A DNA stretch of 64,000 nucleotides from Holophagaceae bacterium. GTDB lineage: Bacteria; Acidobacteriota; Holophagae; Holophagales; Holophagaceae. The position numbers were made by a program, and so were the translations under genes. Below are positions 10,373 through 58,751 of the stretch, one piece after another. The stretch spans positions 1-64,000 of the forward strand of contig JANYBM010000140.1 in assembly GCA_025361125.1 (NCBI GenBank), given 5' to 3'. Every line of letters begins with the position of its first letter. Position 1 is the stretch's first letter. Below the pieces are notes generated by a model. It was not told where the DNA came from, did not search any database, and worked only from the letters and a program-made list of their open reading frames with translations.

Positions 10373-10654
10373 ATGCGTACCTTCATTCTTTGCTCACTGC
10401 TCACGGTGCTTCCTTGCGCCATGCAGGGCACCAAGGAACAGCTGAAATCGGATTTCAAAGAGGCCGGAAAGGATATCAGTAGGGCAGCGAAGAAAGTCGG
10501 CCATGCCGCCAAGGAAGGCGGAAAAAAGATTGGCAAGGTTGCGAAAGAAAGTGGCAAGGCCGTTGGAAAAGGTGCCAAAGAAGCGGGTGAAGGGGTCGCA
10601 AAAGGTGCCAAGGAAACCGGGAAGGGTGTTAAGAAGGCCTTCAAGGAAAATTAG
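10373..10654 (+). CDS. Putatively exported Lys/Ala/Gly-rich protein with 11-residue LEA3-like repeats
   Basis: 93 aa; MRTFILCSLLTVLPCAMQ signal-like N-terminus, then AAKKVGHAAKE GGKKIGKVAKE SGKAVGKGAKE AGEGVAKGAKE TGKGVKKAFKE. RBS-like aaggaga upstream. Confidence 0.75.
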   Translation: MRTFILCSLLTVLPCAMQGTKEQLKSDFKEAGKDISRAAKKVGHAAKEGGKKIGKVAKESGKAVGKGAKEAGEGVAKGAKETGKGVKKAFKEN

Positions 10655-10658
10655 CTTT

Positions 10659-12338
10659 CTATTTCAGCCGTGCCAACACCGCGCCGGGGCTGCGTGCCAC
10701 CTCGTTCCAGGCTCCGCGCTCTGCCTCGGACAAACTGTTCCATTCACCCCGATGAGCCAGGACCATCACCGGTCTGGATGGATCCTCCGATCTCATGCGC
10801 TGGCCCGTGGCGCAGAGTTTTGATGGATTTTCTTCGAACCAACGCTCCTGTTCCACCCTGGGCAGCTGCCCTTTCCCAAATCCCAATTCGCCAGTGCCAG
10901 CCACCACCACACAGCGTTTTTGTGAATGAAAGGGGAGGCCTTGGAAGTACACGCCAAAACTGATCCACTGGGCATTTGAAGGAGCGCGGCGAACCAGCGG
11001 GGCCACATCTTTCCCCGCACTGGCCACCATGTCGGCGACAAAAACCAACGCCAACATGCAACCTCCCAGCGACGCCATCCAGCGCGGCGCGGTCAAGTGC
11101 TTTGGGAACAACGCGAAGAGGCCCACCAGCCCAAACACAACACCTAGTCCCATCACCCAGCCTTGCCCACCCTCCAGATCCTTTGCAAAGAGCAACCCAC
11201 CCATGAGGAAAATGGCACCAAGCACGAACAATTCCATGGCGATGCGCCGGAGACTTTGGAATTCTTCGCCCTTTTCTTCGAAGGTACAACCCAAGGCCAG
11301 CACTGGAACCACCACCGGCAGAATGTAGGGCGCAAGCTTCGAGCCCGACAAGGTGAAGAAAAACAGGGGCCAGGCGAACCCCATCATCATCGTCGCTACG
11401 GTCCAACGATTTAATGTAGCCTCTATGCCTTGAGGCCCTGTGGTCCTACGCATGAAAGCAAAGCCCCGCCTCAGTCCCACCAGACTCAAGCTAAGCCAAG
11501 GGAGCATTCCCACTGAAAGGATTCCCAAAAAGTAGAACTTATCCAGAATCGCATTGTCCGAGCCTTGCCTCGCATGCTCATGGGTGAGGAACCGCGTGAG
11601 ATGCTCGTGAATGAAAAAGAACCGCGCATGCCCTGGGTTTGCCTTGTTGACGAAGTAGAACCAGGGTGCCGTCAGCGCGAAAAACACCAGCCAGCCTAAA
11701 GGATGAAAACCCACCATCAGCAGGGCTTTTCGTAACTTTAGATCTTTCCAGGCGAAGGGGAGTGAAAGTCCAATAATGCCAACCAACAGCACCAGCGCCA
11801 CCGGTCCCTTGGTGAGTACGGCTGCTGATAAAGCGAGGTAGGTAAGCAAGGTCCAACCCAGTGATGGCTCATCACGGAACCTCACGGCCACGGCTTCTAG
11901 CGAGGCTGTGAGAGTGAGGATCAGGAAAGCGGAAAAGAGCGCATCCAGGGTCAAGAGCTGGCCGCAAACGAAGGTTATCAGGACTGTGGCCGTCATCACC
12001 ACGGCCCAGATGGGTCCCCTGGCTCCAAGTCTTTGCGCCAGCCGCCAGGCGCACCAGAACAGGATCAGCGAGGCCAGTGCCAAAGGCAGCCGCGCTGCTA
12101 CAGCGTTCACTCCGAAGAGCTTCATGGACAGCGCAGAAAGCCAATACTGGAGGGGTGGCTTCTCAAAATAAAGTACGCCATTGAGCGTCGGCGTGAGCCA
12201 ATTTCCAGAGGCCAGCATCTCCCGTGGAATTTCCGCGTAGCGTCCCTCGTCGGGTTCCCAAAGCGGCCGCATAAAAAGCGGCAGCAGCCCCAGGATGGCC
12301 CAGAGCAGCAAGGTGGTGGAGCGGTCGCGTTGGGTCAT
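10659..12338 (-). CDS. ArnT-like undecaprenyl-phosphate glycosyltransferase (GT83/PMT)
   Basis: 559 aa; LFMRPLWEPDEGRYAEIPREMLASGNWLTPTLNGVLYFEKPPLQYWLSALSMKLFG is a classic ArnT N-terminal signature. Confidence 0.88.
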   Translation of the reverse strand: MTQRDRSTTLLLWAILGLLPLFMRPLWEPDEGRYAEIPREMLASGNWLTPTLNGVLYFEKPPLQYWLSALSMKLFGVNAVAARLPLALASLILFWCAWRLAQRLGARGPIWAVVMTATVLITFVCGQLLTLDALFSAFLILTLTASLEAVAVRFRDEPSLGWTLLTYLALSAAVLTKGPVALVLLVGIIGLSLPFAWKDLKLRKALLMVGFHPLGWLVFFALTAPWFYFVNKANPGHARFFFIHEHLTRFLTHEHARQGSDNAILDKFYFLGILSVGMLPWLSLSLVGLRRGFAFMRRTTGPQGIEATLNRWTVATMMMGFAWPLFFFTLSGSKLAPYILPVVVPVLALGCTFEEKGEEFQSLRRIAMELFVLGAIFLMGGLLFAKDLEGGQGWVMGLGVVFGLVGLFALFPKHLTAPRWMASLGGCMLALVFVADMVASAGKDVAPLVRRAPSNAQWISFGVYFQGLPFHSQKRCVVVAGTGELGFGKGQLPRVEQERWFEENPSKLCATGQRMRSEDPSRPVMVLAHRGEWNSLSEAERGAWNEVARSPGAVLARLK

Positions 12339-12346
12339 ATTGATAG

Positions 12347-12388
12347 CCCTGGGTTCTGAATCCTGGATTTGAGGTCTGTAGGCTGCGG
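12347..12388. repeat. Degenerate heptanucleotide tandem repeat
   Basis: ccctggg ttctgaa tcctgga tttgagg tctgtag gctgcgg, in the spacer between ArnT-like and epimerase genes. Confidence 0.5.
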
Positions 12389-12428
12389 CCGCGGTACACG
12401 AGTTTCCTCAAGGCCCGGAAGTCAGGTC

Positions 12429-13478
12429 CTAGGACTCATCCTCCACCTGTTCCATGGCTTCATATTCTTTCAGGAAAAAGTCCAGGCTTTTGGCCAGGGC
12501 CTCCTTCATGCTCACCTTCGGATCAAAACCAAAGGTGTCCTTCATCCGCTGGATGCTTGGGGTGCGGTTGAGCACATCCTGGTAACCCTGACCATAGAAA
12601 TCGGTGCTGCTGACTTCCACGATTTCGCTGAGCTTCACCCCAAGCCTTGCTCGCATGGGGTGTTCCTTCCACAGCTCCCGCAGCATCTCCGCCACTTCCC
12701 GAACACTGTGATCCAGCTTTGGGTTGCCAATATTGAAGATGCGGCCATCGGCCTTGCCACCTTCATTCTTCAAGATCATCATCAGGCCGTCCATGGCGTC
12801 TTCCACGTCCATGAAACAGCGGCGTTGCGCGCCACCATCCACGAGTTGCAAGGGTTCGCCCTGGATCAGGTTCCAAACGAATTGGGTCACCAGCCGGGAG
12901 CTGCCTTCCTTCGCTGTGTTGAGGCTGTCGAGCTTGGGGCCCATCCAGTTGAAGGGCCGGATTAGCGTGAATTTCAGGCCATCCCGTTGGCCGTAAGCCC
13001 AAATGACGCGATCCAGCAGCTGTTTGCTGGTGGAATAGATCCAGCGCTGCATGGCGATGGGGCCAGTCACCAAAGGTGATGTTTCTTCGTCAAAAGCAGC
13101 GTCCTGGCACATGCCATAGACCTCGGAGGTGCTCGGAAACACCATGCGCTTTTTGTACTTCACGCATTGGCGCACGATGCGCAGATTTTCCTCGAAATCC
13201 AGTTCGAAGACCCGCAGCGGGTCCTGGACATAGATCTTCGGAGTGGCGATGGCCACAAGGGGCAATACCACATCGCACTTCTTCACGTGGTATTCGATCC
13301 ATTCCTTGGAGATGGTGATATCACCTTCCACAAAGTGGAAGCGATCGTGGCCCACATATTCAGTAAGTTTGTGGGTGCCAAGATCCATCCCGTACACCTC
13401 CCAATTGGTATCGCGCAAGATGCGCCCCACCAAATGGGAACCGATGAATCCATTGACACCAAGAATGAGAACTTTCAT
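12429..13478 (-). CDS. NAD-dependent epimerase/decarboxylase, ArnA C-terminal-domain-like
   Basis: 349 aa; [20 protein letters not shown] Rossmann motif, [27 protein letters not shown] and [12 protein letters not shown] as in the ArnA dehydrogenase domain. Confidence 0.85.
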
Positions 13479-13535
13479 GAATCTCTCCGAGCCAAACCAT
13501 TGAGTCTACCAGCGCAACACCACAAAGGATGAACT

Positions 13536-13602
13536 GGAACCACAAAGACACTGCGGCCACAAAGAGGCGAGCATTCAGTATGTCCCGCGTCTTCATGGTT
13601 CC
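13536..13602. repeat. Imperfect inverted repeat with CACAAAG motifs
   Basis: GGAACCACAAAGACAC...CGTCTTCATGGTTCC, in an intergenic gap that also carries CCACAAAG at 13520-13528 and 13557-13564, and CTTTGTGG near 13616. Confidence 0.6.
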
Positions 13603-13654
13603 GCTTTTTTGGCGCCTTTGTGGCTTCCCCGCGATCGCGGAGGGGGCCCTGGAC

Positions 13655-14710
13655 TCAAACCCGGCAAACCACTTTTCCAAAGCCCTGCCCTGCTTCCAAA
13701 TATCGCTGTGCTTCAGGGTACTCCGCAAGATCGAATATCCGATCAAGCACCGGCCGGAAAGGCGGGTTGGTGGGGTTGCGCTGGACATGGGCCAGCAAGG
13801 TCCATAGGTGTTCGCGGCGGCCCATGTAGGAGCCAATGAATGTGAGCTGCTTGGCGAAGAGCGTGCGGAGGTCCAGCGTGATGTCTCGGCCCGTGGTGGC
13901 GCCGCAGGTGACGATTCGACCCCCACGAGAGACGGCGGCAACACTGGCCTCCCAGCTGGCTGCCCCGGTGTGTTCGAAGACCAGGTCCACGCCGCGCTTT
14001 TGGGTGAGGTCCTTTACTTTTTTGGCGACGTCTTCGGTGCCGCGCACGATGACATGTTCTGCTCCCAATTCCCAGCACTTCACGGCCTTCATCTGATTGC
14101 CCACTACGGCGATGGGCTGGCCGCCGAGAAACTTCACCAGCTGGATGGCCGCGCTCCCCACGCCGCTGCCACCGCCCCACACCAGGACCGTTTCGCCGGG
14201 CTTCAGCTTGGCTTTATACACAAGCATTTCCCACGCGGTGAGAAAGACCAGGGGAAAGGCCGCCGCCTGCTCGAAATCCCAGTTGCCCGGAATCGGCAGC
14301 AGATTGGCTGCCGGCACCAGCACATGAGTTGAGGCGGTGCCATCGCAGCCATTACCCATCACTTTGTAATCACGACACAGCATGTCGTCGCCCCGCAGAC
14401 AGGCAGCGCAGACGCCGCAGGAGAGCCCCGGCGCGATCATCACGCTGCCCCCCAGCTCCACGTCCGGTGGCAGGGCCGTGCCTTCGCCCACGGCGTCCAC
14501 GGTGCCGGCCCCATCGCACCCCGGTGTCACCGGCAGTGGCAATGGATAGCCCTTCATCCCGACCGTGGTCCAAAGATCCAGGTGGTTGAGCGCCATAGCC
14601 TTCAGCTGAAGCCTTACCCAGCCTGGCTTTGGAGCCTGTGGCTCAAAGTTTTCGCGTACCACCGAACCGGCGGGACCGTGTTCATTCACACGAAAACGAT
14701 AGGCGTTCAT
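13655..14710 (-). CDS. Zinc-containing alcohol dehydrogenase / quinone oxidoreductase (MDR family)
   Basis: 351 aa; VTPGCDGAGTVDAVGEG, CGVCAACLRGDDMLC structural Zn site, VLVWGGGSGVGSAAIQLVKFLG. Confidence 0.88.
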   Translation of the reverse strand: MNAYRFRVNEHGPAGSVVRENFEPQAPKPGWVRLQLKAMALNHLDLWTTVGMKGYPLPLPVTPGCDGAGTVDAVGEGTALPPDVELGGSVMIAPGLSCGVCAACLRGDDMLCRDYKVMGNGCDGTASTHVLVPAANLLPIPGNWDFEQAAAFPLVFLTAWEMLVYKAKLKPGETVLVWGGGSGVGSAAIQLVKFLGGQPIAVVGNQMKAVKCWELGAEHVIVRGTEDVAKKVKDLTQKRGVDLVFEHTGAASWEASVAAVSRGGRIVTCGATTGRDITLDLRTLFAKQLTFIGSYMGRREHLWTLLAHVQRNPTNPPFRPVLDRIFDLAEYPEAQRYLEAGQGFGKVVCRV

Positions 14711-34983: not shown

Positions 34984-35691
34984 TTATTTCAACTGCTCAA
35001 GCAGGTCCAAAAGAGACTGGGGCACGGGTTTTTCGCACCAGAGCGCTTCGGCCCATTCACAGAGAAGAAACGATGCGTAGTGCATGGCACGTCCTTCCAC
35101 GCCGCGCCGAAAGGCTGGATGGGCGATACGTGTGGACGCTTCCGGGTCTGCAGAAAACTGGCTTCCGAATGCGTCGAAGGCCTGCATACGGGTGGTCCAA
35201 ACCTCACTCACATCCAGCACGAGATCGGGCCGACCTGGATTCTCACCCGCCATCCAGGCAATGGCTTTGGGACGCCAGGGATCGCCTTGACAGGGATAGT
35301 TCAAGAGGCCTGCGTAATAGGCCGCTTCACGACCCAGACGAAAAGCCCGCCGATGATCCGGGTGGCGATCCTCGGGAGCCGGCAGGATCAATACCATTGG
35401 CCTGAGCTCCCTTAGTTTTGTCATGAGCAGAAGGCGATAGCTCTCGTCTTCGGAAAACCGCCCGTCTGGAAAGCCCAAATCGTGGCGTTCAACGCCAAGA
35501 ATCTTGGCCGAAGCCGCAGCTTCAACACGGCGAGTTTCCGCGGTCCCACGGGTGCCTAAATCACCACGGGTGAGATCCAGGATTCCCGCCCGCAGTCCAC
35601 GTCGGGAAGCCAGTGCAAGCAATCCGCCCACATGGACTTCAGCGTCGTCTGGGTGTGCACCGATGACGAGCAGATCAAGGCTTTCGCTCAC
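34984..35691 (-). CDS. bshB1: Bacillithiol biosynthesis deacetylase BshB1 (PIG-L family)
   Basis: LLVIGAHPDDAEVHVGGLLA, LDLTRGDLGTRGTAETR, LPAPEDRHPDHRRAFRLGREAAYYAGL. Confidence 0.9.
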   Translation of the reverse strand: MSESLDLLVIGAHPDDAEVHVGGLLALASRRGLRAGILDLTRGDLGTRGTAETRRVEAAASAKILGVERHDLGFPDGRFSEDESYRLLLMTKLRELRPMVLILPAPEDRHPDHRRAFRLGREAAYYAGLLNYPCQGDPWRPKAIAWMAGENPGRPDLVLDVSEVWTTRMQAFDAFGSQFSADPEASTRIAHPAFRRGVEGRAMHYASFLLCEWAEALWCEKPVPQSLLDLLEQLK

Positions 35692-36887
35692 GCTTCCTCC
35701 ACCAGGACCAGGCTCCTATTGCCATCCATGTTTGCCAATATTTTTTGGAGTACCTTTTCATCCCGCAGCCAGTAAATACCCGGCAGCACGCGCTCCTGGG
35801 CCTTGCCAAAGGGAAATAGCTGCTGGCGGAGACGCTCTGGATCCATGTTGAATTCATGGGTCGCACGGTCCCGCAACCATCTCCGATCCAGCCGTTCGAG
35901 GCGATGCCGCGCGCGATCCAATTCTTTTGTGAAGCGAGCGCCGAGGGTGGGTCCCCAGGCCAAATCTGGCGAGGCTGCTTCCAACCGTTGGGAGGGAAAG
36001 GTACCTTCATTGCCTGAAAAAGTCTGCCAACAACCATCTCGAAGCGTATTCAAATCTGAAAGGTGTTCCGCCTTCAGTCTGCAACCTGTTGGCAAAACAA
36101 ATACGGAAGGCCGGGGAATGATGCGCGGAACTTTGAGCCCCACCAACTCCCACAAAGGCTCCGCTAGTCGCCAATACTCCCGTTCCGAAGGGCCGAGCAC
36201 CGCAGCTTCAACGGGCAGCAGCAGGGATTGCATCAGGGGGCGCAAGGCCGCGCCAGGGCTGAGCCAGTGCTGCCTCGGACACACCTCCTCGCGTTCCAGG
36301 CGCCGACGCAAACCTGTGCGGGGGTCCAGGGCAAACCAGGTGGCTTGCTGACGCGGGTCCAAGGGCAAAGGGGCGCCTTCTGCTTCCAAGCGGGCCGCCG
36401 AGAGCAGGAGCTGCGCCTCCAGATTCAAGCTGCGCCAACGTTCCAGCTCACTTTGAATGGGCTCGCGAAAGGCCGGATTCGTGGGGGAGAAAGGGCGTAG
36501 GCCAAGTTTCCAAAGGGGTTCGCCAAGGCTCAAGGCGTGGCCGCGCAAGGATGGTTCAGAGGGTGTGGGCACCGGGCCCCAGAGCGATTCTGCCTCCTGC
36601 TGCTGCGCCACTCCCCAGGGCAGCCACCCCGTGGCGGTGCCTTCCGGGGCATCGAACCGAAAGCGATGACGCACCAGACGGCCGTTCTCAAGGCCAACAG
36701 AGGCTGCCACCTCGACCCGGTCGTGATCCTCGTCCGCCATCCAGTAGACAGCGTCCATGCCCAACCGCCTTGCCTCCGCCAAGGCTGCCAGCGCCTTGGC
36801 CACGGAAAGCGCAGGCGTCCATCCAGCGCCGATCTGCTGGCCGGTAACGATCACGGGCTTAGGCTCGGCGGTATTCGGTGTTGGCAT
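35688..36887 (-). CDS. bshC: Bacillithiol biosynthesis cysteine-adding enzyme BshC (compact form)
   Basis: 399 aa; KPVIVTGQQIGAGWTPALSVAKALAALAEARRLGMDAVYWMADEDHDRVEV, LPTGCRLKAEHL, KAQERVLPGIYWL. 4-bp overlap with bshB1. Confidence 0.82.
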   Translation of the reverse strand: MPTPNTAEPKPVIVTGQQIGAGWTPALSVAKALAALAEARRLGMDAVYWMADEDHDRVEVAASVGLENGRLVRHRFRFDAPEGTATGWLPWGVAQQQEAESLWGPVPTPSEPSLRGHALSLGEPLWKLGLRPFSPTNPAFREPIQSELERWRSLNLEAQLLLSAARLEAEGAPLPLDPRQQATWFALDPRTGLRRRLEREEVCPRQHWLSPGAALRPLMQSLLLPVEAAVLGPSEREYWRLAEPLWELVGLKVPRIIPRPSVFVLPTGCRLKAEHLSDLNTLRDGCWQTFSGNEGTFPSQRLEAASPDLAWGPTLGARFTKELDRARHRLERLDRRWLRDRATHEFNMDPERLRQQLFPFGKAQERVLPGIYWLRDEKVLQKILANMDGNRSLVLVEEA

Positions 36888-38961: not shown

Positions 38962-40014
38962 CTAGGCAGGAAACAGGCCTGGCATCCATAACCCGGCCTT
39001 TTCGGACAATCCCAAAGATAGGTTCATGTTCTGCACGGCTTGGCCCGCCATCCCTTTCACCAGGTTGTCCAGGGCTGCGAATAGGACCGCACTGCGGCCT
39101 TTTACCGCGATTCCGATCTCACAAAAATTCGTTCCCACCACCGAAGCGATGCGCGGGGAACCATCAACCTGTCGAATGAAGGGTGCGTTCCGGAAAGTTT
39201 TCTTGAATCGTTGCCTCAAGGTGATTTCATCCAGCCTTTCAGGAAGGAGCAACTGTATCGTGGCGAAGATGCCCCGCACCAGCGGAGCGGAATGGGGGAC
39301 AAAGGAGAGTTGGGCGGTGATGTCCAAACCTCGCAGCAAACCCTCCATTTCGGCCTGATGCTGGTGTTCCAGGGCCTTGTAGGCGCGAAAATCGTGGGCG
39401 CGGGTGGGGTGATGGGCCGTCTCTGAAGGCAGAGCACCGGAGCCGCTGGAACCGGTGACTCCGCTCACGGCCACGAAACCCAGGTTGAGACCCCGAAGCG
39501 GCAGCAAGGCCAACTGCACGGCCGTAGCAAAGCATCCTGGATTGGCGATGCGACTGGCTCCCCGCAACTCTGAAGTCTTCCATTCCGGCAATCCGTAGAC
39601 AAAGGCACCAAGCCGATCGGCGTAAGGATGGGGCTTCCCATAAGCGGCTTCGAACACCAAAGCTTCCGACAATCGAAAATCACCGCTGAGATCAATGAGG
39701 GTGACCCGGTCAGCGATGCCTGCAGTTTCCCACTCGGATTCCAAATAGGACAACTGCTTCGCCAGTTCAAAATGCGGCTGTGCCGAAAATACGACAATGG
39801 CGCCTTCCCTGGAAAGGGTTCCCCATTCTATGTCTGCGTAAAATATGTCACCCAAGAATCCCCGAAGATGTGGGTGGGCACTCCAGATCAATTGCCCCGA
39901 GTGGGACTTGGAGACGGACTGTATGGACGCAACGTTTGGATGGCCTATGAGCAGGCGAAGCAGTTCACCGCCACCGTAGCCACCAGCTCCCAGGATGACT
40001 GCGTGGACCTTCAC
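38962..40014 (-). CDS. argC: N-acetyl-gamma-glutamyl-phosphate reductase (or succinyl analogue)
   Basis: VILGAGGYGGGELLRLLIGHPNV, RIANPGCFATAVQLALLPL, FVPHSAPLVRGIFATIQ. Confidence 0.92.
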   Translation of the reverse strand: MKVHAVILGAGGYGGGELLRLLIGHPNVASIQSVSKSHSGQLIWSAHPHLRGFLGDIFYADIEWGTLSREGAIVVFSAQPHFELAKQLSYLESEWETAGIADRVTLIDLSGDFRLSEALVFEAAYGKPHPYADRLGAFVYGLPEWKTSELRGASRIANPGCFATAVQLALLPLRGLNLGFVAVSGVTGSSGSGALPSETAHHPTRAHDFRAYKALEHQHQAEMEGLLRGLDITAQLSFVPHSAPLVRGIFATIQLLLPERLDEITLRQRFKKTFRNAPFIRQVDGSPRIASVVGTNFCEIGIAVKGRSAVLFAALDNLVKGMAGQAVQNMNLSLGLSEKAGLWMPGLFPA

Positions 40015-41066
40015 GCCTGCACCGCCTTCCGTTTTTCCAAGAGGTCCAGAATGAAATCGCCGAGACCTTGGGCATCATTGCGTGCATTCCTGGCCGGCAA
40101 CCCCAGCGTTTGTTCCACAAAGCGCACCCCCACACGGTTATCCGTCGCGGGTCCGGCGACAAGATCCACTGAGATATCGAAACTCTCCTGCAGGAATTTC
40201 ACGCCCCCAGCAACACCCACTGGATCATTGGCACAAAGCACGAAAGCTGTGGAAAGAGGCCTCAGTTCAGGGTCTGCAAAAATGGCCTGGACACCGTATT
40301 CGCCCATGATGCCATCCCCGGTTTCAGCCACGATGACATCCACTCCGCGGGAAGCTGCCTCTGAAAAAAGCACCTTGGCTGCGGCCGCTGCGTTCACAGC
40401 GTTAGTGGTCACTACCCCCGCATCCGTGAAATCCAAAGCCACCTCGGCACCGTAATCCCGCATCCCGAGAATGTCCCGCATCAAACTCACACCCGTGAGC
40501 TTCAGCCCCCCCACCCGCAAACCAGCGGCGCGGAATCGTCGCACCAAGGCACATGCGGCTGCGGTTTTTCCGGAATTCATGCAGGTACCCGCCACAAAAA
40601 TCACGGGGCAATTGGGCAGCGGACCTCCGCTTTTCAAAGCTCCTTGCTGGATGTTGGCGGGATGCCCCTGCCGCTTCTGGAATTCAGGGTAGACCAAGAC
40701 TTGTCCCAATATTTCGATCTCGAACGGCGGGCCCACATCGGGATTATGGGAAACGCAATGGCCAAATACACCCCCCAGGTTCAAGACATTGAGTTTGTCA
40801 CCAGGTTGCACATTGGAAGGCAGCACGCCCTCGTAGCCATGGAGCGCATTGCGGTGACCCAGGGCCCCCACGATGAGATCCCCATTCTGCAACATGCTCA
40901 TGCGGCCGAATACATCTTCCAATTGGTTGTAGACACTTTTGTCGCCTAGGATCCGTCCAGCCAGAACCGCTCCTGCTTCGGCAGTGATGGCTTCCGTAAG
41001 CGTTACCATCCGGTCCAACCGGAGGTTCCGCGTGACGGATGCGACCTTATCCAGATGAATCCTCAT
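40011..41066 (-). CDS. Uncharacterised P-loop NTPase (DUF1611-like) embedded in the arginine cluster
   Basis: 351 aa; Walker A-like VIFVAGTCMNSGKTAAACALVRRFRAAGLRVGGLKLTG; 4-bp overlaps with argC and argG. Confidence 0.75.
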   Translation of the reverse strand: MRIHLDKVASVTRNLRLDRMVTLTEAITAEAGAVLAGRILGDKSVYNQLEDVFGRMSMLQNGDLIVGALGHRNALHGYEGVLPSNVQPGDKLNVLNLGGVFGHCVSHNPDVGPPFEIEILGQVLVYPEFQKRQGHPANIQQGALKSGGPLPNCPVIFVAGTCMNSGKTAAACALVRRFRAAGLRVGGLKLTGVSLMRDILGMRDYGAEVALDFTDAGVVTTNAVNAAAAAKVLFSEAASRGVDVIVAETGDGIMGEYGVQAIFADPELRPLSTAFVLCANDPVGVAGGVKFLQESFDISVDLVAGPATDNRVGVRFVEQTLGLPARNARNDAQGLGDFILDLLEKRKAVQA

Positions 41067-42256
41067 GAAGCCTCTCCAGCATTCAACGCAAGCATTTGGG
41101 GAACACCATAGAGCTTGGCGAAACCAGCAGCCTCGGCTCCACTCCAGAGATGATTGGCCTCACCATAGCTGGCAATTTTTGAATTCATCAGCCCAAAGGG
41201 GGAGCGCACCCCATCCACCGAAAAGCAGTGAGGATGCACCGTCAACCGCACGTCTCCGCTCACCTTCGACTGGCTGGATTGCAGGAATGCTTCCAGGTCA
41301 CGCACCAGAGGATCGAAGAACTTGCCTTCATGCAGCAGAGAACCATAAAGATTGCCCATGGATTCCTTCCAGAAAAGTTGCTGGCCGGACAACACCAACT
41401 TTTCCAATTCGCGATGGGCGCCAATGAGCAGGTGGGCTGCCGGAGCCTCGAAACCCACGCGGCCCTTGATGCCAAGAATCGTATCGCCAAGGTGCACACC
41501 GCGCCCGATGCCGTAGGTCTTGCCCAATCGGTTCAGCGCCAGGATGAGTGCCACGGGTTCCATGGCCGAGTCGTTCAAGGCTATCGGAACACCCCGCTTG
41601 AATGCGATCGTAAGTTCGAAGGGGGGCAGCTCGGGTGATACGGCGCCCCCAGGATAGGCCTCTTCCGGCAGCGATGACCATGGATCCAAGGTCTCTGCGC
41701 CGCCTATGCTGGTGCCCCACATGCCTTCATTGATTGAATACAGCAAGGTCTTGGCAGGCACCTCAAAACCCTTGGCCGCAAGAAAGGCAACCTCGTCCGC
41801 TCGGGATAACGCTAAGTCGCGAATGGGAGTGAGAATAGCAAGCTCTGGCGCGAGGCTGCGGAAAGCCACATCGAAGCGCACCTGATCATTGCCGGCACCA
41901 GTGGAACCATGGGCGAGTGCGTTCACACCCATTTCCTTCGCCACCGCCACCACCGCTTGGGCCTGGCAAACCCGCTCCGCGGAGACTGACAAAGGATAGG
42001 CCTGACCCCGTAGTACGTTGCCGTAGATCAGGGTGCGCAAAAAGCCATTGAAAAGTGTATTCCTGGCATCCACGGTTCGGTGCGACACCGCCCCCAGGGC
42101 GGCGCTGGCGGCCCCAATGCGGGCCAATTCTTGAATGGAGAACCCACCCGTATCCACCGTCACAGTGGTCACGGACCAGCCCTGCTCTTTCAGATACAAC
42201 ACACAAAAGGAGGTGTCCAGACCGCCAGAAAAAGCCAATAGCGCCTGCTTAGTCAT
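41063..42256 (-). CDS. argG: Argininosuccinate synthase
   Basis: Start moved to MTKQALLAFSGGLDTSFCVLYLKEQGWSVTTVTVDTGGF; AHGSTGAGNDQVRFDVAF, SINEGMWGTSIGGAETLDPW. Confidence 0.92.
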   Translation of the reverse strand: MTKQALLAFSGGLDTSFCVLYLKEQGWSVTTVTVDTGGFSIQELARIGAASAALGAVSHRTVDARNTLFNGFLRTLIYGNVLRGQAYPLSVSAERVCQAQAVVAVAKEMGVNALAHGSTGAGNDQVRFDVAFRSLAPELAILTPIRDLALSRADEVAFLAAKGFEVPAKTLLYSINEGMWGTSIGGAETLDPWSSLPEEAYPGGAVSPELPPFELTIAFKRGVPIALNDSAMEPVALILALNRLGKTYGIGRGVHLGDTILGIKGRVGFEAPAAHLLIGAHRELEKLVLSGQQLFWKESMGNLYGSLLHEGKFFDPLVRDLEAFLQSSQSKVSGDVRLTVHPHCFSVDGVRSPFGLMNSKIASYGEANHLWSGAEAAGFAKLYGVPQMLALNAGEAS

Positions 42257-43643
42257 TTCCACCTCCGAATTCAAATAGTGCGGTTTCCTTGGTGGCCCAA
42301 AAGGTTCGCTTGGCCTGAATCCAGGCGCGCTGGCCGTCCAATTCAACCTGCGTTTGATCCAGGCCCAGATCTTGGGAGGAACCGATATGCGAAGGCACTG
42401 GTTCGTCGCGCTCCGTTACAAATTCTCCAGCCTGGATTTGCTGCCCCACCACTTGATATGCCTCCCGGAAGGAAAGCCCCCGCCGCACCAGATCAAAGGC
42501 TTGTTGCGCGGCATAAAGATCATCTGAGCAAGCAGATTGAGCATTCTGCGTGTTCACTGTCAGGCCTGCAATCACTTTCGTGAGGATGCTGAAGGCTTCT
42601 AAGCCGATGCTCAGCGCCGCGAACGTGGGCTGCTTCAACAACTGCAAATCCCGATGATAATTCGAGGGCAACCCGACCGCGATCTGCTCCACCTGATGAG
42701 CCAGACCACGCAGCTCACCCATCCTGCCCCGCAACAGCTCCACTACATCGGGGTTCCTTTTTTGCGGCATGATGCTTGACCCGGTGGTGAACGCATCCGG
42801 CAAGGACAGAAACCCGAACTCCTCCGTGCTGTAAAGGGTTATATCCCACAACGCTTTTTCCAGCACGTACGCCACGGAATTAAGCCAGTGAAGGATGGCC
42901 AACTCGTGTCGGCCCCGAGAATTCTGGACATCCACCACGCTACGCTGCACGGCACTAAAGCCCAGTAGATCTGCGGTGAAGGCGCGATCCACTGGCAATG
43001 GCACACCGAATCCCGCGGCGCTTCCCAGCGGGCATTTGTCCAAGCGTGCCTGGAGCGCTTTCAAGGCCTCCAATTCCTCCAACAATCCTTCGGCAAAGGC
43101 AGCGCCCCAAAGCCCAAAAGTTGAAGGCATGGCCCGCCGAAGATGCGTGTAGCCAGGCATCTGCACGAACTCGTGGGCAGCTGAAAAATTCAGAAAAGCT
43201 TGGGCCACGGCAGCGATTCCATCACCGATATCGAGAAGCGAGTCCCGATAAAAAAGCCTCAGGGCCAGGATCACCTGATCGTTCCGCGATCTCCCCAGGT
43301 GAATGCGCCGGCCGGCCTCACCGAGTTTTTGGGTCAGCTGCGCCTCGATGGCCGTGTGGCAATCCTCCTGCTCTGCCGTGATGGTGAAGGCACCAGTCTT
43401 GGCCAGCTCTCGGATGGTGTTCAACTCGGCAACCAGAGCTGTGGCATCTGTGTCATTAAGGAGCCCGGTGGAAGCCAGCATCCGCGCGTGGGCGGCCGAA
43501 CCAACCGCATCGAAGGGCACCAGCAGCAAATCGCTCGCTGGGTCGTCACCCACAGTAAACCGATGGATCTCCTCATCCAGCGGCAGACCCTTGGCCCACA
43601 GTTGAGGCGAGGCAACCTTTTCAGTGGGTTTTTCACTGGGCAT
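42249..43643 (-). CDS. argH: Argininosuccinate lyase
   Basis: LGRSRNDQVILALRLFYRD, GYTHLRRAMPSTFGLW, FTTGSSIMPQKRNPDVVELLRGR. Confidence 0.94.
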   Translation of the reverse strand: MPSEKPTEKVASPQLWAKGLPLDEEIHRFTVGDDPASDLLLVPFDAVGSAAHARMLASTGLLNDTDATALVAELNTIRELAKTGAFTITAEQEDCHTAIEAQLTQKLGEAGRRIHLGRSRNDQVILALRLFYRDSLLDIGDGIAAVAQAFLNFSAAHEFVQMPGYTHLRRAMPSTFGLWGAAFAEGLLEELEALKALQARLDKCPLGSAAGFGVPLPVDRAFTADLLGFSAVQRSVVDVQNSRGRHELAILHWLNSVAYVLEKALWDITLYSTEEFGFLSLPDAFTTGSSIMPQKRNPDVVELLRGRMGELRGLAHQVEQIAVGLPSNYHRDLQLLKQPTFAALSIGLEAFSILTKVIAGLTVNTQNAQSACSDDLYAAQQAFDLVRRGLSFREAYQVVGQQIQAGEFVTERDEPVPSHIGSSQDLGLDQTQVELDGQRAWIQAKRTFWATKETALFEFGGGND

Positions 43644-44721
43644 GGCAGGCCTCGGTCGGGTGCTGTTGAATTTTTTCTGCCGCCTCGAAATAGTTGTGGA
43701 TGAGATTCAAATAACAATCCACACCTGCACTCAGCTCTGAGCGGGTGAGGTATTCGTTGGGCTGGTGGCTGCGATGGGTGTCGCCGGGGCCGATTTTCAC
43801 GGTAGGAATAGCCCCCAGGAAAGCCCAATCGCTGGTGGTGTGGGATCCCACGGGTCCCTTGTTGCCATTGGCCTTCAGCGCTGCCTTGAGAATGGGTTGA
43901 TCCGGGTCCGTGGCTTTGGGCAGGTACCGGGCGGAATGAACGATGACCTCACTTTCAAGTTGAGAGGCCAGTTCCGCTGCCATGGTTTGATGATCCAAAT
44001 TCGGGGTAGTGCGCAGATCCACATAGAATTCGCAGGAGTCTGGCACCTGATTCCGCGTGAGACCGCCGGTCAGTTGGGTCACCTGCGCTTTGGCAGCACC
44101 CAACAGTGGATGGCCAGGGAAGCTCAAGGCCGCGAGTTTAGAGATGTCACGGGCGGCCTTGTGGATGGCGTTATCCGCAAGCCCCGCATGGGCCACATGA
44201 GCACTTCGACCGTGGGCAATACATTTCAGAATGAGCATCCCCCGCTGTGCGCCACAGGCCTGTAGATTTGTGGGTTCACCCACAACGGCTGCATCCAAGG
44301 GGCCCAGGTTTTCGAGAATCGTCGAGATACCCTGGCCGCCGATTTCCTCTTCTGCCGTAAAAGCAAAGATAGCGGTGCCCTTTGGAGACTCGGCCTCGGG
44401 CAGTTGCAGGGCTGCGCACAGCATGGCTGCCACGCAGCCTTTGGCATCGTTGGAGCCCAATCCATAAAGTCGATCGTCCTGCCACTTGGGCTGATGTGGG
44501 TCCGTTTCCCAACCCTCACAAGGCGGTACGGTGTCGAGATGTGAATTGACCAACAAACGGGGGCTACCGCTCCCCACCTCAAACCAGAGGTTATTGGCGG
44601 AGCGCTGCACCGCGATGCCATGGGTTTGAAGCAGGGCTGTGATCCACTCTGCGATGGCGCCTTCATTTTTCGAAGCGCTCGGAATGCTCACCAGGGTCTC
44701 AAGAATTTGAGCAGGGGTCAT
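43633..44721 (-). CDS. M20-family deacylase (ArgE/DapE type; likely N-acyl-citrulline or N-acyl-ornithine deacylase)
   Basis: LLVNSHLDTVPPCEGW, LYGLGSNDAKGCVAAML, FAFTAEEEIGGQG, VVGEPTNLQAC, SHTTSDWAFLG. Confidence 0.85.
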   Translation of the reverse strand: MTPAQILETLVSIPSASKNEGAIAEWITALLQTHGIAVQRSANNLWFEVGSGSPRLLVNSHLDTVPPCEGWETDPHQPKWQDDRLYGLGSNDAKGCVAAMLCAALQLPEAESPKGTAIFAFTAEEEIGGQGISTILENLGPLDAAVVGEPTNLQACGAQRGMLILKCIAHGRSAHVAHAGLADNAIHKAARDISKLAALSFPGHPLLGAAKAQVTQLTGGLTRNQVPDSCEFYVDLRTTPNLDHQTMAAELASQLESEVIVHSARYLPKATDPDQPILKAALKANGNKGPVGSHTTSDWAFLGAIPTVKIGPGDTHRSHQPNEYLTRSELSAGVDCYLNLIHNYFEAAEKIQQHPTEACHAQ

Positions 44722-45659
44722 ACAACCACCTCGCTGGGCTGATGCGAAATTGACCCTGCTGCGTTATTGGCAGCGATCATGGTGCCACTGCCTTCATTGG
44801 TGAATACTTCCATCAGCAGCGCGTCTGGAACCAGGCCGCTGACCAGATGAACACTCGACACACCCCCGGCTAAAGCCTGTTTCGCGGCGTCAAGCTTGGG
44901 TCTCATTCCTGCGGTGATGGCTTTATTTTGTTCAAGCTGGGTGAGCTTCCCCAACGTCGCAAAGGGCACCAGCGTGGCTGGGTTGTTCACATCCGCCAAC
45001 AAGCCGGCCACCTTTAGCAGGAAGAACAGTTTTTCTGCCTTGAGTGCCACCGCCACCGCAGCTGCAAGCGTGTCAGCATTGGTATTGAATATCGCTCCTG
45101 CATCATCCCCGGTCAGGGGGGCGATGACCGGTACGAAACCACCTTGAAGGAGATGGGTGAGAAGGGTGGGGTCCACGGATTGGATATCACCCACCAGCCC
45201 GAAGTCCACAGAAGCCGGTTCCGCCACACCATCGGCCTGAATCAATACTGGAGGCCGTTTAGTGGCGGTGACAAGGCCTGCATCCACACCGCTGAGACCA
45301 ACGCAAGGCAACCCGGCGGCGCGAAAGTCGGCCAGCAAGTCCATATGGAGCTTGCCCGCGAAAGCCATCTTCGCGGCATCCAACACCGCGGGGCTGGTGA
45401 TGCGTCGGCCGCCGACTTTAGCGATGGGCAGGTCCATGGATTCGCAGAGTTGATCCAGTGAAGCACCGCCACCGTGAACGATCACCAATTGGATGGAAAA
45501 GCTCCACAGCAACGCCAATTGCTCTGCGACAGCCTTCCTGATGTTGGGTTGATCGAGCAGTTCCCCACCCAATTTCACGACAAACGTTTTCTGGCGGAAC
45601 TGGCGCACATACTTGGCCGCGGAGCGAAGCGTTGCATAGGGATTCGGGGTATGGGACAT
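44718..45659 (-). CDS. argB: Acetylglutamate kinase-like amino-acid kinase
   Basis: Start moved to MSHTPNPYATLRSAAKYVRQFRQKTFVVKLGGELLD; LVIVHGGGASLDQL, NTNADTLAAAVAVALKAEKLFFLLKVAGLL, AGMRPKLDAAKQALAGGVSSVHLV. Confidence 0.9.
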   Translation of the reverse strand: MSHTPNPYATLRSAAKYVRQFRQKTFVVKLGGELLDQPNIRKAVAEQLALLWSFSIQLVIVHGGGASLDQLCESMDLPIAKVGGRRITSPAVLDAAKMAFAGKLHMDLLADFRAAGLPCVGLSGVDAGLVTATKRPPVLIQADGVAEPASVDFGLVGDIQSVDPTLLTHLLQGGFVPVIAPLTGDDAGAIFNTNADTLAAAVAVALKAEKLFFLLKVAGLLADVNNPATLVPFATLGKLTQLEQNKAITAGMRPKLDAAKQALAGGVSSVHLVSGLVPDALLMEVFTNEGSGTMIAANNAAGSISHQPSEVVV

Positions 45660-45770: not shown

Positions 45771-45798
45771 AGAAACTTTTGACTTGAGGCTTAAGCAT
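45771..45798. repeat. Degenerate heptanucleotide tandem repeat
   Basis: agaaact tttgact tgaggct taagcat; overlaps the stop of argF' (45791). Confidence 0.4.
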
Positions 45799-46780
45799 TC
45801 AGCAGCCAATCCATGAGCGCGCGTTGAACGTGAAATCGGTTCTCGGCTTCATCTACCACACGGCTGCTGGGATGATCCAACACTTCATCGGCCACCTCGA
45901 CATTGCGACGAACCGGCAGGCAGTGCAGAAAGATGGCGCCTGCGGCCGCCTTGGCCATGTGCTCGCGATTAAGCATCCACAGGGCGTTCGATTTCACGGC
46001 ATCGGGACCCAATCCAGACACAGTGGAAGGACCCCAGGCTTTGGCATAGACAGCCTTGGCTCCATGCAGCGCCTCATTCTGATCATCCGTAATGGTTACG
46101 CTTCCTCCGGTGTAGGCCGCAAGAGACTGGGCCTCTGCCAACACAGATGGATGCAGGTCGAATCCCTCTGGACGAGCCACGCGAATTTCGCATCCAGCCG
46201 CCGCCGCAGTAAGGAGAAATGAGTTGGGAACCGCCTTCGGCAGGGGCTTGATATGGGGCGCCCAGGTCAACGTCACTGGCACCTTCTTGGTGGTTCCAAA
46301 CGTCTCCTTCACTGTCAGCAGATCCGCGAGGCCCTGGCAGGGGTGCTCCCGCGCGCTTTCCATGCTGATGACGGGCACCGTGGAATACTGCCGGAAGGCA
46401 TTCAGGACCGGGTCTAAATTGTCGGCATCATCATCACTACAGGTGGCGAAGGTTCTCACCGCCAGGGCATCCACGTACCGTGCAAGGACAGGTACGGCCT
46501 CCTTCACATGCTCGGCCCGATCGCCATCCATGATGGCCCCCAGACGGTCCTCAAGCTTCCAAACGCCATTGCCCACTTCCAACACCACAGCATTGCCGCC
46601 ACCCCGAACCATGACAGCCTCGAAAGAAGCGCGCGTCCGCAATGAAGGGTTGAAGAAGACCATCCCCAGCAACTTGTCCGTCAGATGCTTGGGAAACTTC
46701 CCTTTCCACGCGGTGGCCTTGGCAAGGATCGATTCCACACCCGCGGGGCCGAGATCTTGTATAGAGGTGAAGTGGTTCAT
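45791..46780 (-). CDS. argF': N-acyl-L-ornithine transcarbamylase (ArgF' family; probably N-succinylornithine type)
   Basis: GMVFFNPSLRTRASFE, MDGDRAEHVKEAVPVLARYVDALAVRTF, HPCQGLADLLTV, LTWAPHIKPLPKAVPNSFLLTAA, HCLPVRRNVEVADEVLD, VVDEAENRFHVQRALM. Closer to Xanthomonas/Bacteroides ArgF' than to canonical OTCase. Confidence 0.85.
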   Translation of the reverse strand: MNHFTSIQDLGPAGVESILAKATAWKGKFPKHLTDKLLGMVFFNPSLRTRASFEAVMVRGGGNAVVLEVGNGVWKLEDRLGAIMDGDRAEHVKEAVPVLARYVDALAVRTFATCSDDDADNLDPVLNAFRQYSTVPVISMESAREHPCQGLADLLTVKETFGTTKKVPVTLTWAPHIKPLPKAVPNSFLLTAAAAGCEIRVARPEGFDLHPSVLAEAQSLAAYTGGSVTITDDQNEALHGAKAVYAKAWGPSTVSGLGPDAVKSNALWMLNREHMAKAAAGAIFLHCLPVRRNVEVADEVLDHPSSRVVDEAENRFHVQRALMDWLLNA

Positions 46781-47928
46781 AACGTTCCCTCCTGATAGTC
46801 ATGGATGGTGTCCAACAGCGTTTGGATAGCCTCATCGCTCACATTTAGAGATGGCATGAGACGCAGCACGCCTGGATCGCCGGACCCGCCAACCAGGATC
46901 CGCTTGGAGAGTAGGGTCTTTTTCAGGGCACCGGCCTGACTTCCGGCCCGAAGGCCTAAGAGCAGCCCCTGCCCCTGCACCGCACTGACGACAGTTCCAA
47001 CCAAACCCTGCTGGATCAGCCTTGAGGCTTCCATCGCCCTGGCCATCAGGCCTTCACTATGGATCACTGACAAGGTCGCGAGCAGCGCCGCACAGGCGAG
47101 GGGACCACCCCCAAAGGTGCTGCCCAAGTCGCCAGGCTTAAGCTGGGAAGCCACCTCCTCGCTCAGCAGCACAGCGCCCATGGGCATGCCACTGGCCATG
47201 CTCTTCGCGCAAGTGGTGATGTCCGGTTGGACTTCATATAGGTGAGCTGCGAATGGTCTTCCCAACCGTCCAAACCCGGTTTGAACTTCGTCAAATATCA
47301 AAAGTGTTCCCGCTGTATGACATTTCGAACGGAGGGTTGCGAACCACTCCGCGTCGGCTGTCTTCACGCCCGCCATGCTCTGGATGGGTTCGAGAATGAC
47401 CGCGGCAAAGGAACTGAAGTCAACACCCTCAAGTGCATCCATATTCCCGAAGGGAAGAAAAGTGGTGGGTACCAGAAAATCTTCATAGCCCTTCCGCAGA
47501 GCCGCATCGTCCGTCACAGAAAGGGCTAACAGAGTCCTTCCATGGAAGGATCCATCAAAGGCTAGGAAGCCTTTCCGGCCGGTCAATTTCAAGGCGATTT
47601 TCAGTGCGTTTTCCACGGCCTCGGCCCCAGAGTTGCAAAAGAACACTGAGGCCGGGCCATCCGCAAATTGCACCAGCGCGCGCGCGGCCTCGTCCCGCAA
47701 AGGAATTCGCGCTGCGGTGGAGTAGAAGATCAACTCACCCGCTTGAGCCGAAATGGCATCCACCACCGTTGGATGGGAGTGCCCAGTTGCGCATACGCAA
47801 TGGCCTCCATAGAAATCCCAATAGGCATTGCCATCATCATCAAATACCTGGTCCCCAACACCCTTCAGGATAGGAAAGGGATAGGCCGCGTAGGTTGGAA
47901 GGAGGGCTGGAACCAAATTGGTATGCAC
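46777..47928 (-). CDS. argD: Acetylornithine (or succinylornithine) aminotransferase
   Basis: DGNAYWDFYGGHCVCATGHSHP, VFFCNSGAEAVENALKIALK, LLIFDEVQTGFGRLGRPFA, TTCAKSMASGMPMGAVL. GTG start. Confidence 0.9.
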   Translation of the reverse strand: MHTNLVPALLPTYAAYPFPILKGVGDQVFDDDGNAYWDFYGGHCVCATGHSHPTVVDAISAQAGELIFYSTAARIPLRDEAARALVQFADGPASVFFCNSGAEAVENALKIALKLTGRKGFLAFDGSFHGRTLLALSVTDDAALRKGYEDFLVPTTFLPFGNMDALEGVDFSSFAAVILEPIQSMAGVKTADAEWFATLRSKCHTAGTLLIFDEVQTGFGRLGRPFAAHLYEVQPDITTCAKSMASGMPMGAVLLSEEVASQLKPGDLGSTFGGGPLACAALLATLSVIHSEGLMARAMEASRLIQQGLVGTVVSAVQGQGLLLGLRAGSQAGALKKTLLSKRILVGGSGDPGVLRLMPSLNVSDEAIQTLLDTIHDYQEGTL

Positions 47929-48118: not shown

Positions 48119-48526
48119 ATGAATCGAACCCTGGACGAAATCATCCTGAACGTCATCGAGAAGCACGCTTTGTCAGATCAAGACGCGTTGCGAGCCGCGC
48201 TACTGAAGCAGGGCCACAATTTGACCCAGCCCACCCTTTCACGCCACTTGAAAAAACTGAACGTGCAGAAGATAGAAGGCCGCTACCAGCACGTGGAGCC
48301 AACTCATAGCCCTTTGCCAACCTTCAGCATGAGTGATGCACCCCCAAACTTGCTGGTGGTGCATACCGAGCCAGGATTCGCCAATGCCCTCGCCATCAAG
48401 TTGGACCAACTTCAGATCCAGGGCATAGCGGGAACCATCGCAGGTGACGACACCATCTTTGTCGCAGTTCATAATCAACGTCACCTTGCAGCGGTCAAGA
48501 CTGCTGTCTCCGCGGCTTTGGGCTAG
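48119..48526 (+). CDS. argR: Arginine repressor ArgR
   Basis: GHNLTQPTLSRHLKKLNVQKIEGRY wHTH and C-terminal AGTIAGDDTIFVAVHN oligomerisation motif. Confidence 0.9.
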   Translation: MNRTLDEIILNVIEKHALSDQDALRAALLKQGHNLTQPTLSRHLKKLNVQKIEGRYQHVEPTHSPLPTFSMSDAPPNLLVVHTEPGFANALAIKLDQLQIQGIAGTIAGDDTIFVAVHNQRHLAAVKTAVSAALG

Positions 48527-58268: not shown

Positions 58269-58751
58269 ATGCTGAAACTCCGGTCCGCAACCCCTGAAGA
58301 TGCTCCATTGATTCTCCAGTACATCCGCGACCTGGCGGAGTACGAAAAGGATCCCGAAGCCGCTGTGGCCACGGAAGCAGACATCCTTCACCACGCCTTC
58401 TCAGAGCACCCCTTGATCCATGTGGTGCTGGCCGAATGGGAAGACCAGCCCGCGGGTTTCGCGCTCTACTTCTTCAATTTCAGTACCTGGCAAGGGAAGC
58501 CTGGGCTCTACCTGGAAGATCTTTTCGTCCGGCCAGCTTTCCGGGGGTCCGGCATTGGCAAGGCTCTGCTCAAACACCTGGCGCGCATCGCGGTGGACTC
58601 TGGCTGTACCCGCTACGTGTGGCAGGTTCTGGATTGGAACGAACCAAGCATTAAGTTCTACGAAGCTATGGGCGCGCGGCAGTTGAAAAACTGGATCACT
58701 TGCCGGGTGGATGGTGAAGCCCTGTCAAGGATGGCCGAAGGCGCCCCGTGA
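58269..58751 (+). CDS. GNAT-family N-acetyltransferase
   Basis: LYLEDLFVRPAFRGSGIGKALLKHLARIAVDSGCTRYVWQVLDWNEPSIKFYEAMGA. Confidence 0.9.
   Translation: MLKLRSATPEDAPLILQYIRDLAEYEKDPEAAVATEADILHHAFSEHPLIHVVLAEWEDQPAGFALYFFNFSTWQGKPGLYLEDLFVRPAFRGSGIGKALLKHLARIAVDSGCTRYVWQVLDWNEPSIKFYEAMGARQLKNWITCRVDGEALSRMAEGAP

Follow-up and report, generated by a model that had tools for sequence, protein, structure and literature searches.

Bacteroides makes arginine via succinyl intermediates (PMC7311316). In transcarbamylases, the nature of the acyl group is reflected at three positions: the Xanthomonas-type AOTCase has E92, N185, and K302, and the succinyl-type set at 92/185/302 is (A,S,P,V,Q)/P/(V,I,E) (PMC4581275). 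Myxococcus xanthus is reported to have a linear arginine pathway, in which N-acetylglutamate synthase (NAGS) would be essential (PMC1865377).

Here we describe PL, a P-loop protein encoded within an acidobacterial arginine operon. In the lineages that carry PL, M. xanthus included, the models that we used recognized no gene for the first, committed step of arginine synthesis. PL is a candidate whose proposed reaction can be tested, and it would close this gap. Summed over possible mechanisms and acyl groups, we think it quite likely that PL is the missing glutamate-acylating enzyme; its activity is inferred.

PL and its operon

The window (the whole stretch of DNA that we analyzed, 64,000 nucleotides) contains arginine genes in the order argD-argF'-argB-argE-argH-argG-PL-argC, with a divergent argR:

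38962..40014, minus strand: argC, N-acyl-gamma-glutamyl-phosphate reductase (TIGR01850, 313 bits; 4-bp overlap with PL, GTGA)
40011..41066, minus strand: PL, P-loop protein, proposed N-succinylglutamate synthase (activity inferred), 351 aa
41063..42253, minus strand: argG, argininosuccinate synthase (TIGR00032, 307 bits; 4-bp overlap with PL, ATGA)
42249..43643, minus strand: argH, argininosuccinate lyase (TIGR00838, 303.5 bits)
43633..44721, minus strand: argE-like M20 deacylase, proposed N-succinylcitrulline desuccinylase (TIGR01910, 173 bits; substrate inferred)
44718..45659 (start approximate), minus strand: argB, N-acylglutamate kinase (TIGR00761, 200 bits; single AA_kinase domain)
45791..46780, minus strand: argF', knotted transcarbamylase with succinyl-type residues A/P/E at Xanthomonas positions 92/185/302 (NF003384, 423 bits)
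46777..47928, minus strand: argD, N-acylornithine aminotransferase (TIGR00707, 331 bits)
48119..48526, plus strand: argR, divergent arginine repressor (Pfam ArgR N and C domains; TIGR01529, 86.5 bits)

The first-pass annotation had described a 351-residue protein with the motif GTCMNSGKT between argC and argG, overlapping each of them by 4 bp, and all of this can be read in the sequence. The ORF list gives PL an ATG start, and the Walker A motif occupies residues 160-168. The stop codon of argG and the start codon of PL share ATGA (41063-41066), and the stop of PL and the start of argC share GTGA (40011-40014), so both overlaps are real. PL also has its own GGAGAGG just 5' of its ATG. PL is not a chance ORF: near relatives have orthologues with 85-92% identity, identity across phyla is still 55-69%, and 79 columns are invariant in an alignment of 27 sequences.

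The operon had also been said to lack a recognizable first-step acyltransferase. Indeed, Pfam and NCBIfam profiles identified no ArgA, ArgJ, or GNAT gene within it. Nor is an acyltransferase concealed in the window's ArgB, which consists of one kinase domain without a GNAT domain. (Elsewhere in the window, at 34984-36887 on the minus strand, two adjacent ORFs resemble the bacillithiol genes bshB1 and bshC, which is a sequence impression only; they adjoin tilS- and ftsH-like ORFs.)

Conserved position of PL

A scan of species genomes found 112 relatives of PL, of which 80 loci were retained, from Acidobacteriota, Myxococcota, Armatimonadota, Pseudomonadota, Planctomycetota, and Verrucomicrobiota. 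We detected argC downstream of PL in 75 of the 80 loci. The contig ends just past PL in four of the other five, which leaves L077 as the single real exception. Upstream, argG was detected wherever the contig extends, except in a planctomycete (L067) whose gene order is PL-argC-argD-argB.

Within Acidobacteriota, the PL family is graded: tiers T1-T4 score at least 200 bits, and T5 scores below 155 bits. T1-T4 form one group that is separate from the distant T5 rows (support 98/93). In the T1-T4 loci that we read, argC adjoins PL, with ~1.5 kb between the two genes in L221; the contigs of L194 and L227 are too short to show an argC neighbor. Six T4 loci (L184-L186, L190, L207, and L208), from five Acidobacteriota families, contain four-gene PL-argC-argD-argB units. 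ArgB, ArgC, and ArgD catalyze the three known steps after the acylation of glutamate, so PL fits the remaining step. A role in arginine synthesis would have been refuted, according to the first-pass annotation, if homologues lay mostly outside arginine clusters. This is not what we found: homologues of at least 200 bits adjoin argC in nearly every locus read, and only the distinct T5 clade (under 155 bits) was found away from argC. (In locus L171, a complete PL-type arginine cluster is accompanied by another set of argD/argB/argC-like genes at 10425-14054.)

Co-occurrence with other arginine genes

Among 396 genomes of Acidobacteriota, PL is present in 101 and ArgJ in 141, and none has both. 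PL is found in 82 of the 93 genomes with ArgF' above the cut-off, and the PL genomes without a full ArgF' match are mostly fragmented assemblies or T4 families. Fisher tests of these co-occurrences give extreme p-values but ignore shared ancestry; because the genomes are related, the p-values overstate independence. Within the window's family (25 genomes of a 41-genome set), 20 genomes contain PL, and all but one of the 20 have a match to ArgB (the exception, G002, is 76% complete). The five genomes of this family without PL had no match to ArgB, ArgA, or ArgJ either. The ArgJ model (TIGR00120) found nothing in the window's genome, and 22 PL genomes from six phyla, including M. xanthus, had no ArgA above the cut-off and no ArgJ.

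PL keeps a conserved position and is missing where ArgJ is present, and on these grounds it is probably an unrecognized first-step enzyme of arginine synthesis, and this probably holds for Acidobacteriota, for Myxococcus, and for several other bacteria. The gene positions and the co-occurrence are computed; that PL carries out the acylation is inferred, without biochemical or genetic data, and association with a pathway is by itself no proof of catalysis. Against this reading stand about eight genomes, all from the family f22, that encode ArgF' above the cut-off, argC, argD, and argB without PL; in those that were read, the ArgF' residues are of the succinyl type. (The f22 loci L209, L210, L211, L212, L214, and L216 have the order argR-argC-argD-argF'-argB and no PL.)

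Genomes with ArgF' and without PL would be easier to understand if PL were an accessory or regulatory ATPase, such as a chaperone, an organizer of a complex, or an arginine sensor for ArgB/ArgC, and if an unrelated acyltransferase encoded elsewhere made N-acylglutamate. Candidates of that sort exist, as GNATs were present in all genomes checked, with 18 matches listed for the window's genome. However, an accessory role does not sit well with the mutual exclusion of PL and ArgJ or with the four-gene PL-argC-argD-argB operons. Furthermore, two PL genomes of 1.2 Mb have just four GNATs each, and none of these four types reaches a NAGS cut-off (the BT3761 type was not among the models). The one nearest to the short-NAGS model scores 28 bits against a cut-off of 180; it is YjgM-like (L104), and we rejected it as the missing enzyme because records of E. 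coli plasmids also carry annotations of this family. We therefore consider an accessory role to be quite improbable. The first-pass annotation had proposed a regulator, a ligase- or kinase-like enzyme, or a part in N-acylation; we favor the last two in combination, and, with no bench data, a regulator is not excluded.

A GNAT in the window itself (58365-58673, plus strand) was also rejected as the missing acyltransferase: it is far from the operon, and the best family matches of its relatives are not NAGS. The 1.2-Mb relatives have orthologues of it, and its relative in them resembles no NAGS model closely.

The acyl group

The window's ArgF' has A/P/E at positions 92/185/302, which meets the published rule for the succinyl type. 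More broadly, the ArgF' proteins linked to PL have P at 185, a residue other than Glu at 92, and E, V, or I at 302, with one K (in L171). Most of them fit the published succinyl set; those with T or I at 92, or K at 302, fall outside it. A natural contrast, although it is one case, is the acidobacterium G122, which has an acetyl-type ArgF' (E/N/K), a fusion of ArgB with a NAT domain, and no PL. At L217 (6068-7384, plus strand), an acidobacterial ArgB-NAT fusion of the NAGS-K type has an acetyl-type ArgF' beside it.

The ArgF' residues are computed, and succinyl as the group that PL attaches is inferred from them. The residues outside the succinyl set raise the possibility that PL makes glutamate with a blocking group that is neither succinyl nor acetyl, for instance another carboxylate. 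But most of the ArgF' triads belong to the published succinyl set, and the cluster has no gene whose product would make a different blocking group, so we think that this is very improbable.

Fold, conserved residues, and proposed mechanism

No Pfam or NCBIfam family matched PL above its cut-off, and PHROGs gave nothing. No GNAT or NAT domain was found in PL with Pfam or NCBIfam, and the ArgJ model TIGR00120 did not match it. The AlphaFold model of the 351 residues (pLDDT 91.8, pTM 0.90) predicts two domains: an N-terminal beta domain (residues 1 to ~135) and a BioD/CobQ-like SIMIBI P-loop domain (residues ~152-345). With this model, Foldseek matched SIMIBI P-loop proteins (FtsY, BioD, MeaB), and each only in part; among the 50 matches listed, the query TM-score is at most 0.40. 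The N-terminal 137 residues, modelled alone, had no fold match in the PDB (best E = 1.1).

The P-loop domain matches the fold of dethiobiotin synthetase, BioD (PDB 1dts and 3of5, E ~4e-6 to 8e-6). This likeness does not extend beyond the P-loop domain, and a single-sequence comparison shows it only weakly (E = 0.004). The BioD model TIGR00347 matches residues 157-191 of PL with 14.1 bits, below its cut-off of 83.3 bits. In a profile alignment, K15, T16, K37, D54, and E115 of BioD, whose catalytic roles are established, align with K167, T168, K189, D198, and E248 of PL. (The pairing covers the P-loop domain only, with a profile probability of 88%, and no structures were superposed.) M163, GKT166-168, K189, D198, and E248 are invariant in 56/56 aligned members of the PL family.

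If PL works as BioD and CobQ do, then Mg-ATP would bind at the Walker A loop (K167 and T168, with D198 and E248); the carboxylate of succinate would be phosphorylated by ATP, with K167 and K189 assisting; and the amine of glutamate would attack the succinyl phosphate to give N-succinylglutamate, ADP, and phosphate. In this scheme, PL attaches an acyl group to the amine of L-glutamate. The product, most likely N-succinyl-L-glutamate, would pass to ArgB, ArgC, and ArgD, which would convert it to N-succinylornithine. ArgF' would then carbamoylate N-succinylornithine, the M20 deacylase would take off the succinate, and ArgG and ArgH would complete arginine.

An ATP-dependent, ligase-like PL at the acylation step is favored by the neighborhood, by the exclusion of ArgJ, by the lack of a full ArgA, and by the four-gene PL-argC-argD-argB operons. 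We lean toward ATP and succinate as the substrates that yield N-succinylglutamate; this activity has been inferred, not shown. The conservation of the ligase-type residues is computed, and the use of ATP rather than succinyl-CoA as the driver, like every catalytic role, is inferred.

Alternatively, PL could be the first-step enzyme and use an acyl-CoA donor (succinyl-CoA), with the P-loop binding the phosphates of CoA, as it may in DgcN. DgcN is a D-glutamate N-acetyltransferase that we take to be a member of DUF1611. The P-loop domain of PL has a weak similarity to DUF1611_C (PF07755, E = 0.0024; 17.7 bits against a gathering score of 25), a T5 relative just exceeds that cut-off (25.6 vs. 25 bits), and distant plasmid homologues of PL carry a DUF1611 annotation. 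Also, D-glutamate N-acetyltransferase is a known activity (EC 2.3.1.312; PMC11747546). In contrast, the whole set of ATP/Mg ligands is kept in every PL member, and the match of PL to DUF1611 is restricted to residues 152-188 around the Walker A motif. We consider the CoA donor unlikely; neither a CoA-dependent mechanism nor an accessory role of PL is excluded.

Distant relatives and implications

T5 relatives of PL adjoin ATP-grasp, ABC-transporter, or M20 genes. At L192, L200, L201, L202, L204, L206, L298, L299, and L302, they adjoin ABC-transporter or ATP-grasp genes, and one of them is annotated as a dethiobiotin synthase. Two others are on plasmids of Priestia megaterium (L300, 6965-8026, plus strand) and Bacillus paranthracis (L301, 6863-7891, plus strand), next to genes for PEP mutase, a thiamine-pyrophosphate enzyme, a carbamoyltransferase-like protein, and ATP-grasp proteins. 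These plasmid clusters look like phosphonate biosynthesis. Because T5 loci lie beside ATP-grasp, ABC-transporter, M20, and PEP mutase genes, the wider PL family is not specific to arginine.

It seems to us an evenly balanced proposition that PL represents a family of ATP-dependent N-succinylglutamate synthases in several phyla, neither GNAT nor ArgJ, with T5 relatives that are amide-forming enzymes elsewhere, including in phosphonate clusters. PL would then carry out a known pathway step with an unrelated P-loop protein that belongs to no Pfam or NCBIfam family, and it would add one more unrelated way of acylating glutamate. Auxotrophy predictions that count the first step as missing from such genomes would be corrected as well.

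Comparison with known enzymes and pathways

BioD is a single domain of ~225 amino acids, whereas PL has two domains, with an additional N-terminal domain of ~135 residues, and has no bio genes as neighbors. The carboxylate-amidating ligases CobQ, CbiA, and CobB show weak similarity to the P-loop of PL (for CbiA, E = 0.011 with the window's PL and 6e-6 with a T5 relative). Unlike these ligases, PL has an arginine context and a different N-terminal domain, and no glutamine amidotransferase domain was found in it.

ArgA, NAGS-K, short NAGS, and the N-acylglutamate synthases of Bacteroidota and Caldithrix act at the step that we propose for PL. PL, a P-loop protein without a GNAT domain, is unrelated to all of these. 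In Caldithrix, argA also flanks argG, in the order argAGCBEH (PMC5317091). Another parallel to the PL clusters is the succinyl pathway of Bacteroides, as both have a succinyl-type ArgF' and a separate deacylase and the other steps are the same, but the PL clusters have PL where Bacteroides has a BT3761-type synthase.
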